Source: Acidimicrobiales bacterium
Lineage (GTDB): Bacteria > Actinomycetota > Acidimicrobiia > Acidimicrobiales > JAHWLA01
Assembly: GCA_035536915.1 (NCBI GenBank)
Contig: DATLNE010000034.1
Span: forward strand, 1-64,000
Length of the DNA: 64,000 nt
Reading direction: 5' to 3'
Each line of letters opens with the position of its first letter. Positions within the stretch are counted from its first letter, which is position 1. Below, in pieces: positions 1 through 7,612 of this stretch. The position numbers were made by a program, and so were the translations under genes. Below the pieces are notes generated by a model. It worked only from the letters and a program-made list of their open reading frames with translations. It ran no database searches and was not told where the DNA came from.

Positions 1-10
1 GAGTACATAA

Positions 11-30
11 GACCTGCGGCGCTTTAGGTC
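11..30 (+). repeat. Left terminal inverted repeat of the IS
   Basis: It begins GACC(T)GCGGC and ends TAGGTC, and pairs with 991-1010 at 15 of 20 positions. The outer six and inner six bases are the best conserved. Confidence 0.75.
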
Positions 31-67
31 CACCACTTCGGTGGGGCGACATTCCTAGCGTTTCGTC

Positions 68-949
68 ATGGCGCCCCGACACGTCGTCACCATCCAACCG
101 TCGCGCGATCTGTGCGGCACGAGCCCCGAGCAGTTCGCCGAGCTGCTGACACGGATCGGCCCGGCCTGGGAGGCGATGCGCCGATCGAACGCCGAGCGCC
201 CGGGACGGCTGCGGGCGCCGGGTGCGGGCGCCAAGCCGGTGCCGTTGTGGCTTCGGCTGCTGGTGGCCCTCACCCACATGCGCCAGGGTCTGTCGACGCG
301 GGCCACGGCGAGGGTGTTCGGCGTGCACGAGCGCAGCGTGCGCCGCTGGCGCGACGAGATCGAGGCCCTGCTGGCTGACCACGGCTGCACCCCTCCGGGT
401 GCTGCTGCGCCCATCCGCACCACCGCGGACCTGCTGGCGCATCTGCAGTCGCGCCCCGCCGAGCCCGTCCTCGTCGACGGCACCGAGGTGCCTCGCTGGA
501 CGCCCGGCGACTGGGAGGCCCAGCAGGCGGCGTGGTCGGGCAAGTCCAAGGCCCATGTGCTCAAGGGCACGGTCGTCGCCGACGCGTCCCGTCGACCGCT
601 GTGGTTCGAGGCGAACCCCACCGGCGAGGGCCGCACCCACGACACGACGATGCTGCGCGCCCAGTCGGCACTGCTGGCGACGCTGCTCGCCGCCGGGGTC
701 CTCGTGGTGGCCGACCAGGGCTACCGGGGTCTGCGCACCGAGCTCGGCGAACGAGCGTGGGTGCCCGCCATGAAGCCGCGTCGCGGCACCCGCGCAACAC
801 GCGACACCGAGCACGCCCTCGCCCGCATGCCCGTCGAGCACGCGATCGGACGGATGAAGTGGTGGCGCGTCATGCGCGACTGGCGCCGGCCCGTCGACCG
901 CTTTGACCGGACCGGCAAGGCCGTCGCCGTCCTCGCATCGATGCTCTAG
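68..949 (+). CDS. IS5-family DDE transposase
   Basis: Catalyses cut-and-paste movement of the surrounding element. The 293-residue protein has an N-terminal helix-turn-helix segment (about residues 75-100, with ARVFGVHERSVRRW) and a DDE catalytic domain of the DDE_Tnp_4 type. Likely catalytic residues are Asp137 in LVDGTE, Asp216 in VADQGYRG and Glu257 in PVEHAIGRMK. The SGKSKAHVLK segment near 158 matches the usual pre-second-Asp motif. The frame is intact from ATG to TAG and fills the element, so it may be active. Family-level identification is firm; the IS5 subgroup is not settled. Confidence 0.88.
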   Translation: MAPRHVVTIQPSRDLCGTSPEQFAELLTRIGPAWEAMRRSNAERPGRLRAPGAGAKPVPLWLRLLVALTHMRQGLSTRATARVFGVHERSVRRWRDEIEALLADHGCTPPGAAAPIRTTADLLAHLQSRPAEPVLVDGTEVPRWTPGDWEAQQAAWSGKSKAHVLKGTVVADASRRPLWFEANPTGEGRTHDTTMLRAQSALLATLLAAGVLVVADQGYRGLRTELGERAWVPAMKPRRGTRATRDTEHALARMPVEHAIGRMKWWRVMRDWRRPVDRFDRTGKAVAVLASML

Positions 950-990
950 CCGCGCGCCCGCGTTCCCGAGTCGCTGCCACGCTGTCGCGC

Positions 991-1010
991 GACCTATCCG
1001 GCCGCGGGTC
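991..1010 (-). repeat. Right terminal inverted repeat of the IS
   Basis: Read on the minus strand it starts GACCCGCGGC and ends TAGGTC. It is the partner of 11-30. CATA follows immediately at 1011-1014. Confidence 0.75.
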
Positions 1011-1040
1011 CATAGCTCACCTCATGGGAGCGCGGACGGC
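1011..1040 (+). repeat. Left copy of a ~34-bp inverted repeat flanking the island
   Basis: CATAGCTCACCT, ATGGGA and CGCGGACG occur here in order. The same blocks, with one inserted base and two substitutions, occur on the minus strand at 6484-6455. The first five bases of the full repeat (GAGTA) lie at 1-5 on the other side of the IS. The two copies bracket the accessory genes in inverted orientation. Confidence 0.7.
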
Positions 1041-1414
1041 ATGTCCAACCAATGGGCGTGCCGTTTTCAGTCTCCGTCGTTCGCGCGCAGTGGGGGCCGC
1101 GCCGCCTCGCGGGCCGTAACTACTCGGCATCGAGGCTCTCCCGTCAAAAGCCGGGCGCGCTCCGCCGGTCGACGGACTTCCGGGTACAAAATCGGTGGAG
1201 ATGAAATTTCGACGCCGGAACCTTGAGGATCTGGCGACCTCACCAGCGGGAACCTGGGCACCGTGACGAGCGCGATGCAGTCGTCACAAGGGCGCTGACG
1301 TCGTTCTCCGTGGCATGGGCCGTCTCGTAGAGGGAACCAATGCCGGCTATTCGACGCGAGATGGTGCCGGGGGTTCAAAGCTATGGTGAGGGATAGCTAA
1401 ATCGGGGAGGGGCC
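1041..1414. other. Gene-free stretch upstream of the radical SAM operon
   Basis: No open frame here has a plausible ribosome site or protein-like composition. It must contain the promoter of the operon starting at 1415. A weak candidate -10 (TAGCTA, around 1394) is the only thing visible and is not convincing. Confidence 0.4.
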
Positions 1415-2230
1415 GTGCACGATGCAAGTTTGTCCAAACGGCCGCTGACCCCTCCTGGCAGCGGGGTCCGCAACCGCTTGATGCTGACGACGGGCGGGCG
1501 GTGCGTGTTCGACTGCCAATACTGCTTTGCGCGGTTCTCTGGCTATCCAGGGGTCCCCACGCTCCAAGACGTGGAGGCGGGCCGGGTCTCGCTGCATGGC
1601 GTGGACATCATCTACCCGGCGTGCGATACGGACCTGTTCGGACGCGCTGACGCACTGCCCCTGCTTTGGGGCCTGACATCTCTTCGGCGGCACATCAGCC
1701 TATCGACGAAAGCAGCGCTGTCCCGTGGAACCGTGCATGGGCTTGCGGATGTGAGTCGGGTGCTGGGGGCAGCCGGACGGGCCATGAAAGTGGCAGTGTC
1801 CATCACGACCAAAGCGTCGGTGTCCCGGCTAGAACGGAGAGCATCGAGCTACGAGGAGCGCATCGAGACGCTGCGGCTGCTGAACGAAGCCGGATTGCCG
1901 ACTGCGCTCAACCTGCGCCCTCTCCTGACTGACGTCGCTGCTGCTGAATACCTCGAGGTCCTCGAGGAGTGCAGGCCATACACGGTCCGCCTGCTGTTGG
2001 GCGACGAGTACGTCGACCCAGCGGCCCCTCGTCCCCAGGTGGGGTTGGAGGCTACCGATACGTTCCAGATTTCTGCGAGGCCGGGTTGGGTCGCTGTGAT
2101 GGAGCCGTGGCTGCGCCGGGCGTCGGTCGACCAGTCCGGTCGCGTGGCCGCGGCGGCCGAGCGTCTTGAATACAGGGTCTTTCACAGCGACTTGGACTTG
2201 ATGGACGACGTGATCGCCCGCTTGCGCTAA
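1415..2230 (+). CDS. SplB-like (COG1533-type) radical SAM protein
   Basis: Predicted [4Fe-4S] radical S-adenosylmethionine enzyme of 271 residues; substrate unknown. The cluster motif CxxxCxxC is Cys30, Cys34 and Cys37 (RCVFDCQYCFARF). Downstream blocks resemble the spore photoproduct lyase-like family: IIYPACDTDLF, HISLSTKAAL, VSITTKASV, then a RIETLRLLNEAGLPTALN segment. The C-terminal extra cysteine site of many radical SAM proteins is absent. The GTG start has GGGGAGG at 1404-1410, five bases upstream. Eight bases separate its stop from the next gene, so it heads a three-gene operon with a PRTase-like and a kinase-like protein. GC and codon use look lower than in the chromosomal genes downstream. 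The partners suggest a nucleoside or nucleotide substrate; that is inference. Confidence 0.8.
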   Translation: MHDASLSKRPLTPPGSGVRNRLMLTTGGRCVFDCQYCFARFSGYPGVPTLQDVEAGRVSLHGVDIIYPACDTDLFGRADALPLLWGLTSLRRHISLSTKAALSRGTVHGLADVSRVLGAAGRAMKVAVSITTKASVSRLERRASSYEERIETLRLLNEAGLPTALNLRPLLTDVAAAEYLEVLEECRPYTVRLLLGDEYVDPAAPRPQVGLEATDTFQISARPGWVAVMEPWLRRASVDQSGRVAAAAERLEYRVFHSDLDLMDDVIARLR

Positions 2231-2238
2231 TCCCGCTG

Positions 2239-3249
2239 ATGAACACCCTGACTGAGATGGCCTTGGCTGTGGCGGGTATTCCGGCGCTTCTGCTGCTTAT
2301 TCTGATGGCCCTGACTCAGTTGCGCGACGAGGCATTCTACCAAGGGTGGATCCGCCCGGACTCCCGTCTTGGCAATCAGGCTCAGCGAGCGGCACGAGCG
2401 CGAGTGGTCCCGGCGCTGGATGCCCTGGGCATTAACCCGCAGGTGAAGGCGGAACTGGCCAGGACTGCGGACACCGCCGCTGCCTTGGGGGCAAGGCAGC
2501 CGCAGACGCAGGTTCGTCGGTTGGACGTCGCCTTGGCCAAGACGATCAAGCCGTGGATCCGCGAGCTCGATGACAACGACTTCCGCGGCCTCCGGTGGTA
2601 CGTAGACACCATGGGGGCGGTTCACCACCAAGCGCAGCACGACGTATCGCTTGCACGCATCATGGCTGCATGGGTGGAGTACCTCGCGAGACACAATCAC
2701 ATCGCACTACCGGGCGTTCTGTTGGTGCCGAAGGACGGCAACCCGATCCTCGCCCGCGAGGCTGCTGAGCTTCTTCCCCACCGGCCCGGCATCATCGTCG
2801 TCAAGGGTGAGAACGATCCCTCCCGCGTGTGCACGCACGGTGTGTCCCACGAAACCGACTTCGAGGGGTTGCGGGCGTATCTGGAGATGCACGACCCGGG
2901 CCTTCCGGCAACGGTTCTCGCCGTTGACGACAGCTGTACCTCTGGCCACTCGATGATGAGCGCCATCAATCGGTTCAACGACTATGTGAGAAGGAAAGAG
3001 CTCGAAGCGACGGTCACTCCTGTCGCCGACGCGGCCACCCTGTACTGCGTCAGGGCCGCCGACGATCACGCCCAGGTCTTCACTAACTCGCCTAACGACG
3101 TCGAGCTGCGGTCGCTCATCGCCTTGGGCGACGATGAGATGAGCTTCCTCGTTCGAAGCAACGTGGCGGAGTTGGAGCGCCGGGTAACCCGTTTCAAAGA
3201 CGAGCACTGTGTCATGAAGGACCGTCTCGCCGGACGGGTCGATAACTGA
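2239..3249 (+). CDS. Membrane-anchored phosphoribosyltransferase-like protein
   Basis: The 336-residue protein has one N-terminal hydrophobic helix (about residues 7-25) followed by a cytoplasmic-looking region and a type I phosphoribosyltransferase-like C-terminal domain. The PRPP-loop motif is VLAVDDSCTSGHS at residues 226-238, with the paired aspartates Asp230-Asp231. An earlier LLVPKDGNPILAR segment (161-173) fits the loop preceding the PRTase core. The central region (about 30-150) has no recognised domain. Its stop overlaps the next start by one base (TGATG), indicating translational coupling. Whether it binds PRPP or ribosylates a base is unknown. The membrane anchor is unusual for a salvage PRTase and suggests a sensing or defence role, which is speculative. 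Confidence 0.72.
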   Translation: MNTLTEMALAVAGIPALLLLILMALTQLRDEAFYQGWIRPDSRLGNQAQRAARARVVPALDALGINPQVKAELARTADTAAALGARQPQTQVRRLDVALAKTIKPWIRELDDNDFRGLRWYVDTMGAVHHQAQHDVSLARIMAAWVEYLARHNHIALPGVLLVPKDGNPILAREAAELLPHRPGIIVVKGENDPSRVCTHGVSHETDFEGLRAYLEMHDPGLPATVLAVDDSCTSGHSMMSAINRFNDYVRRKELEATVTPVADAATLYCVRAADDHAQVFTNSPNDVELRSLIALGDDEMSFLVRSNVAELERRVTRFKDEHCVMKDRLAGRVDN

Positions 3250-3860
3250 TGCACTGGGTGGTCACGGGTCCGATCGCATCCGGCAAGACGACGTGTACCT
3301 GGGGTTTGGCCACTCGGCTTCACGCGGTGGTCGTGCCGGAGAACTTCGAGTTCCACCCGCGTTTGGCGGACTTGCATGCGGGAGCCGCCCCGGCGTGCAG
3401 CGCGCAACGATGGTTCTTGGAGCAATTCCGTCAAGCGGGCGTCGTCGCGACTGAACTCGCGCGGCTCGGGGAGCGCGTGGTCCAGGATCACAGTTACTTC
3501 GATGTGCACCAGGTCTTCAACACCGCGTTGCACCGGCGGGGCTGGCTCAGCGATGACGAGTTCCTTCAGCTCGCTCTCGACTACGAGTTCGGCTTGGACG
3601 ACGTGCGGCCCCCGGACCTGGTCATCGCCTTGAACGCACAGCCCGCTTCATTGATAGAGCGCGTTCGCCGTCGAGGTCGGCCGTTCGAGCAGCGGCTGAC
3701 GGAGGAGTACCTTGCTGAGCTGTCTGAGACCAGCCGTGGCTGGTGGCGCTCGTGGACCGGCTGCCGAGTCGTCGAGGTTGATACCGACAGCGTCGACCCG
3801 CGGACGAGTCGTGGCGTGGACCAAGTGCTCGCCCTAGCCCACACCAAGTCGCTGGCGTAA
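3249..3860 (+). CDS. Deoxynucleoside kinase-like P-loop protein
   Basis: Predicted nucleoside/nucleotide kinase of 203 residues. Walker A is GPIASGKTT at residues 7-15. Glu31 (PENFEF) is placed like the catalytic acid region, and DHS at 80-82 is the likely counterpart of the DRS/ERS motif. The arginine-rich lid RVRRRGRPFEQ at 138-148, followed by EEYLAEL, closely follows the lid of deoxynucleoside kinases. Start and stop are coupled to the PRTase-like gene upstream. It is the last gene of the operon. The substrate cannot be told from sequence; phosphorylating a product of the radical SAM partner is a reasonable guess only. Confidence 0.75.
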   Translation: MHWVVTGPIASGKTTCTWGLATRLHAVVVPENFEFHPRLADLHAGAAPACSAQRWFLEQFRQAGVVATELARLGERVVQDHSYFDVHQVFNTALHRRGWLSDDEFLQLALDYEFGLDDVRPPDLVIALNAQPASLIERVRRRGRPFEQRLTEEYLAELSETSRGWWRSWTGCRVVEVDTDSVDPRTSRGVDQVLALAHTKSLA

Positions 3861-4284
3861 GTCGGATTGAACGAATCGGTTAGTGGCACCTAAAAGTCTG
3901 GGCTGTCTAGGTCCTTGTAGGACGCCCCACGTGGGCGAGCAGTGAGGGAAGGGACGACCGCCAACCTCACGACTGTCTCCGTTTCGGCCCAAATGGAGTC
4001 ACGTGTGTCCCGCATCGCCAGCTATCACCAGCCGGAACGAGGAGAACGGCGAAGAGAGAGGCCCCAGCCTCGTTGGCACGACCGAGCGCTACCTCGTTTC
4101 GATGTTGTGACGCGACGGGCGGCAGCTTCGCGGCTTCGTCTGGCCCATGGGGCGGAGGCGGCGCCTTGGCGGCTGCTTTCCGCCTCGCTCGACGATCTGG
4201 TGGTTGCGCGAAACCGGCGTCAGATTCGCCTTCGCGTCCCCGGCGCGTAGTCAGCGTTCACGCAGGGGCCGTACGCTTCGCTCA
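3861..4284. other. Gene-free stretch inside the island
   Basis: No convincing gene. Two small inverted repeats are visible: GTCC-TTGTA-GGAC near 3911-3923 and a GCCC-CACGTG-GGC palindrome near 3922-3935. They could form a modest terminator for the operon upstream. No T-run follows. Confidence 0.35.
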
Positions 4285-5092
4285 ATGGGGGCGTCCCGAA
4301 ACCGTGGCAACAAGCCGATGTCCGACGGGGAGCGCCTGCTCGCTGCGTACCTCCGCCAACAGCAGCTTCCCTACGAGTTCGAAGTTGGCGAACTGCGAAG
4401 ACCCGACTTTCAGGTCCACCATCCGATCACCCGCGTGGTGTGCGAGGTGTACGAACCGACCGTTCGGCTTCCGCCGCAGGCCGGACCGTTCGATTTCGTG
4501 TCGCCTCTTCGGGGTGCCTTTCAAGGGCGCAAACGAAGGCAGGGCGCTGAGGCAAGGAGCGCTGGTGTCCCGTACGTCGTGGTCCTGGGGTCAGCCAACA
4601 GCGATGTGGGGTTGGACGTCTTCAGCGTCGCAGGAGCTGCGTTCGGGAATGTTGGTGTGTCTTCTCGATCGACCCGGCGACCGGCCGCACTGGTCCTGTA
4701 GAGACGACCTTCGGGTCTGGCGCGCGACTGCAACCGGCGATCAACACCCGGTACAGCGCTGTATCCGGCTTACCAAGTTCAACCCGACTCAGTACCGAGT
4801 GGAACGCTCCCTGAAGGATCGGCTGTCACGCGGTAAGCCAAGCCCCAGGGAGACTTGGCGCGTGGTCCGCGAGGTGTACGACCACTTTGCCGCAACGGCC
4901 GAGTTCGACCCGGAGGCGGCACTTGCACGGGTGACCGTTCTCCACAACCCGCACGCCTCGACGCCATTGCCAATGGAGGTCTTCGGGGGTCCTCACGACG
5001 AGCACTGGGGGACCATGTGGGACGACGAGGCGAACGGGCGATACACGCGCCTTGCGACCGGCCGGTTGTGGTTCGAAGTTCCGGAGTCGTAG
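4285..5092 (+). pseudogene. Frameshifted PD-(D/E)XK nuclease-like gene
   Basis: One protein is spread over three frames. Frame one (4285-about 4659) gives SDGERLL, RRPDFQV, CEVYEP and VPYVVVLGSANSD. Frame two (about 4659-4771) gives VFSIDPATGRTG, VETTFG and NTRYSAVSGL. Frame three (about 4772-5092) gives TKFNPTQYRVER, VLHNPHA, PMEVFGGPHDEHW and a natural stop. Both junctions are explained by a single missing base, near 4659 and 4771. The Glu, PDF and CEV residues suggest a restriction-endonuclease-like fold, at moderate confidence. Sequencing error could mimic this, but two events in one gene within a decayed island argue for a true pseudogene. Confidence 0.6.
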
Positions 5093-5121
5093 AAGAGCTG
5101 CTACCTCGCCGCTGAGCCTCG

Positions 5122-5937
5122 TCAGGACGCCACGGTGCCGAATGGGTCGAGCGTTCGCTGAATGGCTTCGTTAGCTTCGGCCCTGAACTGCCGGACTGCG
5201 TCCGCGCGATGGGAATACGCCCACGCCGGATGCGAGTCATCCCACCGCCGCATCGTGTCGGCCCACGACTCTTCGTCCAGACGACGGGCTGCGTGCACCG
5301 CAAGCTCATACGTGCGCTCACTCAACAACCGCGCGCGGCGGTGACCGTGCAGTTGGAGTATTTCAGAGCGTGCGTCGCGGTAAGCGCGGGCGACCGATTC
5401 GGGACGCTCCGTGAGATCGACCTCGAGCTGAATTCGCATCCGCCACGGCTGGGGGTAGTCGCCCTTTGCAGGCGCAAACGCCGGCCACGTCATCCGAAGC
5501 GCCGTCGTTTGAGGCGTGAGCCCGGTCAACACGTGGACCGTCGCCTGTCCGGGTTGCCAGCCGTACTCCACGGCGAGCCGTTCGGAGAGCCGACGGAGGC
5601 GCCCGAGGACACCATGTTCGTTGACCCCAATGACCCGACGCCACGTGTCCTCGGGCACCGCGTACGCCAACGGGTCGGAGGCATAGCGAACGTGGTCTGG
5701 TGGTCGCTTCGGTACGCGCTCTGAAGGTTCCGGTTCGAGCCAGGTGGCGACCACGCGCACGGAGGGGCTGCCGTCGGCCGCAGCGTGACCGTTGATCCAG
5801 CCTTCCACGTCTTTCCAGTCGAGCAAACCGGAGGGCAGATGGTCGACACGGAACGAGCGAACCTCTCCGTCGTCGTTAGCTTCGACCGCGAGGATCTCGG
5901 ACACCGCCCGATGGCGGTGTCGCTCGGCCTGAGGCAT
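5122..5937 (-). CDS. Hypothetical protein, unknown family
   Basis: The chosen ATG at 5937 gives 271 residues. The frame stays open to 6471, but beyond 5937 the translation becomes low-complexity antisense of the replication-relaxation remnant, so that part is rejected. The protein has a tryptophan- and arginine-rich composition with blocks such as LLDWKDVEGWIN, EDTWRRVIGVNE and a C-terminal HPAWAYSHRADAVRQFRAE. There are no membrane segments or recognised catalytic motifs. No clear ribosome site decides the start, and the gene could itself be truncated at 5' by the junction near 5940. Function unknown. Confidence 0.45.
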   Translation of the reverse strand: MPQAERHRHRAVSEILAVEANDDGEVRSFRVDHLPSGLLDWKDVEGWINGHAAADGSPSVRVVATWLEPEPSERVPKRPPDHVRYASDPLAYAVPEDTWRRVIGVNEHGVLGRLRRLSERLAVEYGWQPGQATVHVLTGLTPQTTALRMTWPAFAPAKGDYPQPWRMRIQLEVDLTERPESVARAYRDARSEILQLHGHRRARLLSERTYELAVHAARRLDEESWADTMRRWDDSHPAWAYSHRADAVRQFRAEANEAIQRTLDPFGTVAS

Positions 5938-5940
5938 GGA

Positions 5941-6477
5941 GGGCGCCTTCGGCGAGTCCCTGTGGTCGAAGAACCCGCGGGCTGGGGCGGCGCGGCCAGC
6001 CCGCACCCCAACTTCCTCATGCACACCGCGGCGGTGACCGGCTTCGCCCTCGCCCTGGCCGACGCTGGCGACTCGGGCCTCGTGCTGCGCGAGTGGCGGC
6101 GGGACGAGGAGGCGTGGGAGCACTGGCGCGACGGCGACCGCGACCTCCACGTCGCACCGGACGGCCTGCTGCGCGCGGACGCCTTCGGCCGCTCCGTCGT
6201 CGCCTTGGTGGAGGTCGACCGGGGGACGATGACCCAGCCGCGACTTCGGGGCAAGGCGCTTCGCCACCTCCGCTACGCGCACGACCGGGCCTGGGCGGGA
6301 CGCCACCCCTGGCCGCCGCCGCTGCTGTTCCTCACCACCTCCGAGGACCGGGCGCGCCGCCAGCTCGACGGCGTGGACCGCCTGAGGGTGTCGTCGCGGC
6401 GCAAGAGCCGCGTGTCCATCGCCTTCGCCTGGACCGGTGCGGCGCGCCACCTTTGGCGTCCGCGGTCCCATAGGTGA
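5941..6477 (+). pseudogene. 3' remnant of a replication-relaxation family gene
   Basis: From about 5950 the plus strand encodes a segment typical of the C-terminal half of plasmid/ICE replication-relaxation proteins (PF13814-like): an FLMHTAAVTGFALAL helix, VLREWRRDEEAWEHW, DLHVAPDGLLRADAFG, VALVEVDRGTM, then LFLTTSEDRARR. The expected N-terminal winged-helix half is missing. Upstream of about 5940 the same frame is only the antisense of the neighbouring hypothetical gene, so the gene is broken at that junction. The TGA at 6475-6477 overlaps the inverted repeat beside mrp. It marks this island as derived from a plasmid or integrative element. Confidence 0.6.
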
Positions 6478-6488
6478 GCTATGTACTC
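6455..6488 (-). repeat. Right copy of the island-flanking inverted repeat
   Basis: Read on the minus strand it is GAGTACATAGCTCACCT, then ATGGGACCGCGGACGCC. It matches 1-9 joined to 1011-1040 with one gap and two mismatches. The TAG in its first part is the stop codon of mrp. The first 11 bases are also the arm of the palindrome at 11571-11607. Confidence 0.7.
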
Positions 6489-7612
6489 GAAACGGGGCCG
6501 AGGCGGGCTTCCACGTCGTCGAGCAGGCGGGCGGAGCACCCCGCCATGTCGGCCACCGGCACGGCTTCCTCTACCAGTCGCTCGGCCAGGGCGGCGAAGG
6601 CGGGCACGCTGCCGGGCCGCCCGACGTCGCCGCCCGCCGCCACCGACGGGTCGAGGGGGATCGAGGCCAGCAGGGGCACGCCCAACTGCGCCGCCAGCCG
6701 CTCACCGCCGCCCCGCCCGAACAGCGGGTACGACTCGCCGTGGTCGCACACGAAGGCGCTCATGTTCTCGACCACGCCTGCCACCCGCAAGTACCCCTTG
6801 CGGGCCATGTCGGCGGCCCGGGCGGCCACGTTCTGCGCGGCCAACGCGGGCGTCGTCACGATCACGACTTCGGCCCGCGGCAACATGCGGGCCAGCCCCA
6901 TCTGGATGTCGCTGGTGCCGGGCGGCATGTCGATGAGCAGGTAGTCGAGCGGCGCCCAACGCACGTCCTCGAGGAAGTGCTGCACGGCCCGGTTGAGCAT
7001 GAGCCCCCGCAGCATCACCGCCTGGTCCTCGGCCGACCCTTCGATCGACCCCATCGACACGACCTTCAACAACCCGGCGCCCACCGGCTTCTCCAGCGGG
7101 AGCATCTTGCCGTCGACGGCGGCGACCCGACCCTCCAGGCCGAGCATGCGGGGGATGGAGAACCCGCCGATGTCGGCGTCGAGCACGCCGACCGTCAGCC
7201 CCCGCATCGCCAGCTGCACGGCCAGGTTCGACGTCACCGACGACTTGCCCACGCCGCCCTTGCCCGAGGAGATGGCCAGCACCCGCGTCGTGGCCGGGAT
7301 GTCGGTGTCGACCGCGTTCTCACGCGCCTTCCACCGGGCCCGCTGCATCAACGAACGCTTCTGCTCAGGGGTCATCTCACCGAAGTGCACCCGCACCTCG
7401 CCCACGCCCTCGACGGCGCCCACCCGCTCGCGTACGTCTCGCATCAGTTGCGCCCGAAGCGGGCAGCCGGCCGTCGTCAACGCCAGCGTCACGTCGACGT
7501 CGCCGGTGGCCTCGTCGACGTCGACCCGGTGGACCATGCCCAGTGCCACCACGTTGTCGCCCAGCTCGGGGTCGATCACATCGACCAGGGCACGACGCAC
7601 GGCAGCTTCCAC
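6479..7612 (-). CDS. mrp: Mrp/ApbC-type Fe-S cluster carrier ATPase
   Basis: Cytosolic P-loop ATPase that carries or inserts iron-sulfur clusters. The 377-residue protein has an N-terminal MIP18/DUF59 domain (about 1-80, with the conserved Cys50 in TTAGCPL) and a ParA-like domain with the deviant Walker A SSGKGGVGKSS at 115-125, DADIGG, and LLIDMPPGTSD. The usual CxxC near the C-terminus is reduced to one cysteine (NMSAFVCDHGE). The GTG start at 7612 is divergent from a SufR-like regulator, and the shared intergenic region holds a candidate operator. Its stop codon lies inside the inverted repeat that bounds the island. Confidence 0.92.
   Translation of the reverse strand: MEAAVRRALVDVIDPELGDNVVALGMVHRVDVDEATGDVDVTLALTTAGCPLRAQLMRDVRERVGAVEGVGEVRVHFGEMTPEQKRSLMQRARWKARENAVDTDIPATTRVLAISSGKGGVGKSSVTSNLAVQLAMRGLTVGVLDADIGGFSIPRMLGLEGRVAAVDGKMLPLEKPVGAGLLKVVSMGSIEGSAEDQAVMLRGLMLNRAVQHFLEDVRWAPLDYLLIDMPPGTSDIQMGLARMLPRAEVVIVTTPALAAQNVAARAADMARKGYLRVAGVVENMSAFVCDHGESYPLFGRGGGERLAAQLGVPLLASIPLDPSVAAGGDVGRPGSVPAFAALAERLVEEAVPVADMAGCSARLLDDVEARLGPVSST

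Follow-up and report, generated by a model that had tools for sequence, protein, structure and literature searches.

Several described systems come close to parts of the locus considered here. pVip combines viperin, a radical SAM protein, with a nucleotide kinase, and serves here as a works-like comparison only. Among radical SAM enzymes of the SPL type, the hydrogen donor of spore photoproduct lyase (SPL) is C140 (Gt numbering; C141 in Bs), Y96 is the SAM-binding tyrosine and Y98 a relay residue (PMC3742179). Type III retrons typically use phosphoribosyltransferase (PRTase)-like proteins as effectors (PMC12548924). The 64,000-nucleotide stretch analysed in this study (the window), which is the start of contig C34 in a 3.2-Mb genome that we read as actinobacterial from its genes and their relatives, carries three adjacent genes, P0001, P0002 and P0003, whose predicted products are a radical SAM protein, a membrane PRTase-like protein and a deoxynucleoside kinase (dNK). 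Our best-supported reading is that they form one translationally coupled operon, the cargo of a small foreign island, with a nucleotide-handling role.

Operon architecture and genomic setting

The features of the island are as follows.

1 to 1016, plus strand: IS5-family-like insertion sequence (IS) with its transposase at 68-949; it is the left bound of the island, and the contig end falls inside it
1415 to 2230, plus strand: P0001, GTG start, 271 aa, with GGGGAGGGG just upstream
2239 to 3249, plus strand: P0002, ATG start, 336 aa, after an 8-bp gap from P0001
3249 to 3860, plus strand: P0003, ATG start, 203 aa, with a 1-bp overlap with P0002 (TGATG)
4285 to 5092, plus strand: two abutting reading frames (4285-4701 and 4700-5092; seen from ORFs and codon-position GC) that resemble one broken gene
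5785 to 6471, plus strand: remnant of a truncated replication-relaxation (mobile-element) protein (PF13814, Replic_Relax, E=2.1e-10, profile positions 88-183 of 191), at the island's right edge

The three genes stand in this order and are coupled, their motifs are intact, and they are of foreign origin. The initial annotation had described them as joined by 8-bp and 1-bp junctions, and these coordinates proved exact, with all three ORFs intact and longer than chance would give: in 1,000 dinucleotide-preserving shuffles of 1415-3860, three ORFs of this length never occurred and a single 336-codon ORF occurred in three. The codon-position GC of the trio is coding-like (GC3 0.77-0.80, GC2 0.43-0.51), the GC3 of the host being 0.85-0.93. 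A scan for sigma-70-like promoters upstream of the operon found none.

The IS transposase matches DDE_Tnp_4 in Pfam (E=2.8e-17) and, weakly, the IS5 model in NCBIfam. Two copies of the IS are present in the genome, and its bounds were set from the contig ends that share it: its first 141 bases form the ends of C53 and C44, and its last 250 the start of C13. GC content is 0.62-0.68 across about 1-6 kb (the drop runs from about 1017 to 5700), compared with 0.70-0.75 in the surrounding host DNA, and to the right of the island lie core genes for Mrp, an HTH regulator and an Fe-S assembly protein. In a genome of the same genus (G654) an ABC permease directly adjoins Mrp, and the island is absent at this sibling locus. 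The equivalent permease of the present genome is found at the end of contig C44, separated from the IS by about 1.9 kb of genes that look ordinary. The IS and island therefore appear to be an insertion into the permease-Mrp interval, the join of C44 to C34 being drawn from synteny and not from the assembly. That the island was imported is shown by its low GC and by its absence from the sibling locus. The suggestion of a mobile-looking setting is thus borne out by the low GC, the IS on the left and the replication-relaxation remnant on the right.

A nuclease-like pseudogene had also been proposed beside the operon. The two abutting frames at 4285-5092 do look broken and are probably a single broken gene, but its identity as a nuclease found no backing, since neither frame gave a Pfam match or a plasmid match. 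Further to the right, at 5122-6471 of the window, long ORFs overlap on opposite strands, one on the minus strand and the other the plus-strand truncated replication-relaxation protein; the minus-strand ORF, over 5122-5800, reads as a real protein and has no family match.

Family assignment of the three proteins

The clearest assignment is that of P0003, which by its sequence is predicted to be a deoxynucleoside kinase. It matches PF01712 (E=1.5e-18, 67.7 bits against a cut-off of 27) and the PDB dNK entry 6ybh (E=1.6e-9), and an alignment with bacterial and phage dNKs shows that the P-loop GPIASGKT, the catalytic Glu and the lid RRGRPFE are all kept, in agreement with its earlier description as a kinase with a deoxynucleoside-kinase lid. 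The DRS/ERS motif reads DHS in P0003, an Arg-to-His replacement. Since Dgk, the plasmid-borne protein of B. subtilis annotated as deoxyguanosine kinase, has DYH and another actinobacterial relative has DFS, the motif is not universal in PF01712; and because Dgk also does without the Arg, the replacement alone is not grounds for calling P0003 inactive.

P0001 carries CxxxCxxC at residues 30-37 (Cys30, Cys34 and Cys37), together with Tyr36 and Cys70. Its match to PF04055 (E=4e-6, 27.5 bits) falls just under the cut-off of 29.5. The best family score is to NF033668, the PA0069 family (E=5.6e-9, 35.5 bits, cut-off 360), followed by NF038135, the Rv2578c family (E=1.9e-3, 17.3 bits, cut-off 430), and SPL scores lower still, with 11.9 bits for PF20903 (cut-off 27) and 14.7 bits for TIGR04070 in NCBIfam (E=0.01, cut-off 400). 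The phage family phrog_13321 is matched at E=4.5e-5. In alignments with members of this group, CxxxCxYC, TD, TK and P are conserved in P0001. A structural model built from an alignment with six phage relatives reached a pLDDT of 53 and a pTM of 0.59, and is confident around residues 50-130; the best PDB matches of its partial barrel are the radical SAM enzymes SkfB, NifB, SuiB and BlsE, with SPL also listed. P0001 thus combines the cluster motif with a partial TIM barrel, the two features that define the radical SAM superfamily. We place it, as a compact radical SAM protein, in the SPL/PA0069/Rv2578c group, an assignment that is firm at the clan level only.

We rejected the identification of P0001 as SPL proper, as its scores are far below the family cut-offs and a Phe replaces the relay Tyr. 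Of its description as SplB-like, what stands is a radical SAM protein that resembles SPL at clan level, as seen from the NF033668 match and the partial model; membership in the family does not, the score being below cut-off. In the E-INS-i alignment Cys70 (PACDTDLFG) falls on Cys140 of SPL (AACTSDIVG), a column at which relatives in the group carry G, T or N, and in the L-INS-i alignment it is one column off. P0001 has Tyr at the SAM-binding Y96 position of SPL and Phe38 at the position of the relay Tyr98(Gt)/Tyr99(Bs). The Tyr at the Y96 position and the placement of Cys70 on C140 by E-INS-i make an SPL-like thiyl step through Cys70 possible.

P0002 consists of an N-terminal membrane span at residues 7-25, a helical stretch and a PRTase-like domain at about 155-300. 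The hydrophobic span has a mean KD of 2.66 and is the only one. The domain contains a PRPP-type loop, VLAVDDSCTSGHS, at 226-238, as well as a PKDGN loop. VLAVDDSCTSGHS fits the PROSITE-type motif save for a Cys at one aliphatic position, and the correspondingly relaxed motif occurred in 0 of 20,000 shuffles. PF00156 (Pribosyltran) was the sole recurring family candidate, at E=0.06-0.2 and 11.4-13.2 bits, under the cut-off of 26.3. In the single-sequence model (pLDDT 42) the beta-alpha order is of low confidence, and a strand-loop-helix order fits a PRTase. Matches of this model to triosephosphate isomerase were set aside as meaningless given the low-confidence fold, and the Foldseek and VIA matches were uninformative; no relatives of P0002 were found in the PDB. 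From the loop motif together with the sub-threshold Pfam match, P0002 is plausibly a phosphoribosyltransferase. The initial annotation had it as a single-span PRTase-like protein with an intact PRPP loop; the single span and a near-canonical loop hold, but the PF00156 score stays below cut-off. Its broader view that all three proteins point to nucleoside chemistry accordingly holds well for P0001 and P0003 and only moderately for P0002.

Recurrence and proposed function of the trio

No second copy of the trio, and no instance of any two of its genes together, was found in plasmids, phages, IMG/VR, 84,980 species genomes or actinobacterial samples, and we found no literature on the trio. The species genomes were scanned by exact motif patterns, which miss relatives lacking those motifs, and the HMMER searches covered a few hundred actinobacterial genomes each with no motif restriction. 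Neither P0001 nor P0002 gave a tblastn match in plasmids or phages, and IMG/VR scans with single sequences and with the steered alignments A1, A2 and A4 were likewise empty; rows 2-3 of alignments A1-A4 are invented variants that served for choosing search motifs and are not evidence. P0002 was absent from the motif scan of species genomes, and by HMMER in actinobacterial genomes it found only itself at E<=1e-3. The sole P0001 locus in the motif scan (L019) was discarded as an apparently unrelated radical SAM protein. In the actinobacterial HMMER searches P0001 gave only distant matches (E 7e-5 and weaker), mostly to SPL-group proteins, and P0003 only distant kinases. A further member of the SPL/PA0069/Rv2578c group is encoded by the host itself on contig C12.

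Relatives of P0003 have varied neighbours. On Acinetobacter plasmids these are thymidylate synthase and dihydrofolate reductase, in Prevotella another dNK, and elsewhere a dCTP-deaminase-like protein (in an actinobacterium) or unrelated phage genes. On the Acinetobacter plasmids the dNK is an unannotated frame (L004, 8001-8525) that is open past the match and adjoins thymidylate synthase and dfrA45; it lies between two copies of ISVsa3, and the same match is found on 14 Acinetobacter plasmids. In the actinobacterium (L021, 535-2109; G333 contig C144), the dCTP-deaminase-like protein has a C-terminal membrane span and is closely followed by the dNK relative. In another genome (L006; G329 contig C106), the frame of an Rv2578c-type radical SAM protein is interrupted inside CxxxCxxC by an intein-like insert. 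Phage contigs in IMG/VR carry many compact radical SAM proteins that resemble SPL and make up one large family (L074-L158; phrog_13321, with LGGMTDCFQ; 246 stretches in one scan). We considered this family as a bearer of the trio and rejected it, as neither a PRPP-loop pattern nor a dNK pattern occurs in the flanks examined. At one locus (L078) a DpdA/queuine-transferase-like protein and a YhhQ-like transporter are encoded two genes away from the radical SAM protein (2920-3807), a neighbourhood that might point to base modification.

The tight, co-directional and intact junctions, the lack of stops over 2.4 kb and the broken neighbours suggest that the trio shares a nucleotide function, and nucleotide handling in particular is suggested by the dNK and SPL-type radical SAM families, two of the three proteins, having nucleoside or nucleic-acid substrates. 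The PRPP-loop motif of P0002, the intact kinase active site of P0003, the radical SAM barrel in the partial model of P0001, the E-INS-i placement of its Cys70 and the import of the island also speak for this reading. We propose that the trio is a mobile cargo operon that makes or salvages a modified (deoxy)nucleotide at the membrane, and put the probability of this reading at roughly one in three. P0003 would phosphorylate a (deoxy)nucleoside at its 5' position, P0001 would use a 5'-deoxyadenosyl radical to act on the base or the sugar, where Cys70 might donate the hydrogen in the manner of SPL, and P0002, anchored by its one membrane helix, would use or sense PRPP or a ribose-phosphate ligand and join or release the base, yielding in the end a nucleotide that is either modified or salvaged. 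That the three proteins act on a shared substrate, and in what order, is what we infer. The single instance, the PRTase score below cut-off, the poor model of P0002, the one-column shift of Cys70 in L-INS-i, the Phe of P0001 in place of the relay Tyr98 and the failure to find an upstream promoter count against the nucleotide-operon reading.

A quite different explanation, that chance brought three unrelated cargo genes without shared function into a decaying island, would account for the single instance, the broken neighbours and the unrelated neighbours of dNK relatives elsewhere. It is hard to square with the translational coupling at the two junctions (1-bp overlap, 8-bp gap), with the intactness of all three genes and with their matching codon-position GC, and we consider it improbable.

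In principle, the proposed operon could instead be metabolic cargo of an ordinary kind: genes for salvaging nucleosides or repairing damaged bases, without a part in defence, that travel as passengers of a plasmid or integrative element. To our knowledge radical SAM proteins and membrane PRTases do not occur together in any salvage pathway, and this counts against such an origin. A membrane span would also be unusual for salvage. The notion draws support from dNKs being common on phages and plasmids, some of them beside thymidylate genes, from the repair of DNA bases by SPL-type enzymes (PMC3742179) and from the SPL-like radical SAM family that phages carry, and on balance we hold it to be somewhat doubtful.

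Could the trio act against phages? P0001 and P0003 might make or watch a nucleotide signal or a viperin-like chain terminator, with the membrane protein P0002 as effector, a scheme that fits the island setting, the membrane anchor of P0002 and the PRTase-like effectors of type III retrons (PMC12548924). The searches bearing on it argue otherwise. PADLOC matched none of the three proteins, and what it gave for the neighbours tested stayed below significance; viperin models were absent among the NCBIfam matches of the trio at E up to 1, Pfam detected no reverse transcriptase among the island ORFs tested, and Rfam RNA models, including retron RNA, gave no match beyond chance within 950-6500; nor did the trio recur beside defence genes. 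We therefore consider an anti-phage system unlikely: nothing favours antiviral use over metabolic cargo, and a defence use is conceivable. The novel system raised by the initial annotation fared similarly, given that recurrence of the trio was not found, defence families were not matched, and the dNK and distant radical SAM relatives have unrelated neighbours. A novel defence or modification system is thus not supported by recurrence, yet it stands unrefuted. Its most specific form, an undescribed membrane-tethered nucleotide-modifying system of an SPL-like radical SAM protein, a PRTase and a dNK whose product is used against phages or in DNA, strikes us as a long shot.

If the three proteins of the proposed nucleotide operon do share one substrate, they would bring radical chemistry together with PRPP and nucleoside-kinase chemistry at the membrane, in a new combination, and would offer a lead toward a new modified nucleotide. 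At present the locus is one orphan instance with unusual gene content. Metagenome collections can be queried with the motifs VLAVDDSCTSGHS and VPKDGNP for P0002 and CVFDCQYCFAR and YPACDTDLFG for P0001.

Comparison with described systems

Relative to viperin and pVip, P0001 belongs to the SPL group and has no match among the viperin models of NCBIfam or PADLOC. The type III retrons with a PRTase-like effector (PMC12548924) resemble the locus in having a PRTase-like protein, a mobile setting and a multigene cassette, but here neither a reverse transcriptase nor an Rfam match was found, and P0002 has a membrane span.

For the radical SAM protein, SPL (SplB; PF20903, TIGR04070) offers CxxxCxxC, the SAM-binding Tyr adjoining the last cluster Cys, the TK strand and the SI...E..SS..R segment in common, and in one of two alignments a Cys at the hydrogen-donor position. 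In contrast to SPL, P0001 has about 29 residues before CxxxCxxC, where B. subtilis SPL has about 90, a Phe for the relay Tyr98, and weak profile scores. The PA0069/Rv2578c families (NF033668, NF038135) give P0001 its best family scores and share the TD and TK motifs; however, they have GT(N/A)TDPYQ or similar where the 271-aa P0001 has PACDTDLFG, and the scores are far under their cut-offs. The phage family phrog_13321 is likewise a compact single domain, of 280 aa, with 19-26% identity to P0001 over the whole length, although its LGGMTDCFQ and its near-C-terminal DCC are absent from P0001.

P0003 differs from the dNKs of PF01712 (Drosophila dNK, B. subtilis Dgk/Dck and phage dNKs) in its DHS for DRS/ERS and shows at most about 31% identity to the plasmid and phage dNKs found, but it has the P-loop, the catalytic Glu, the base-pocket Gln and the lid RGRPFE in common with them.
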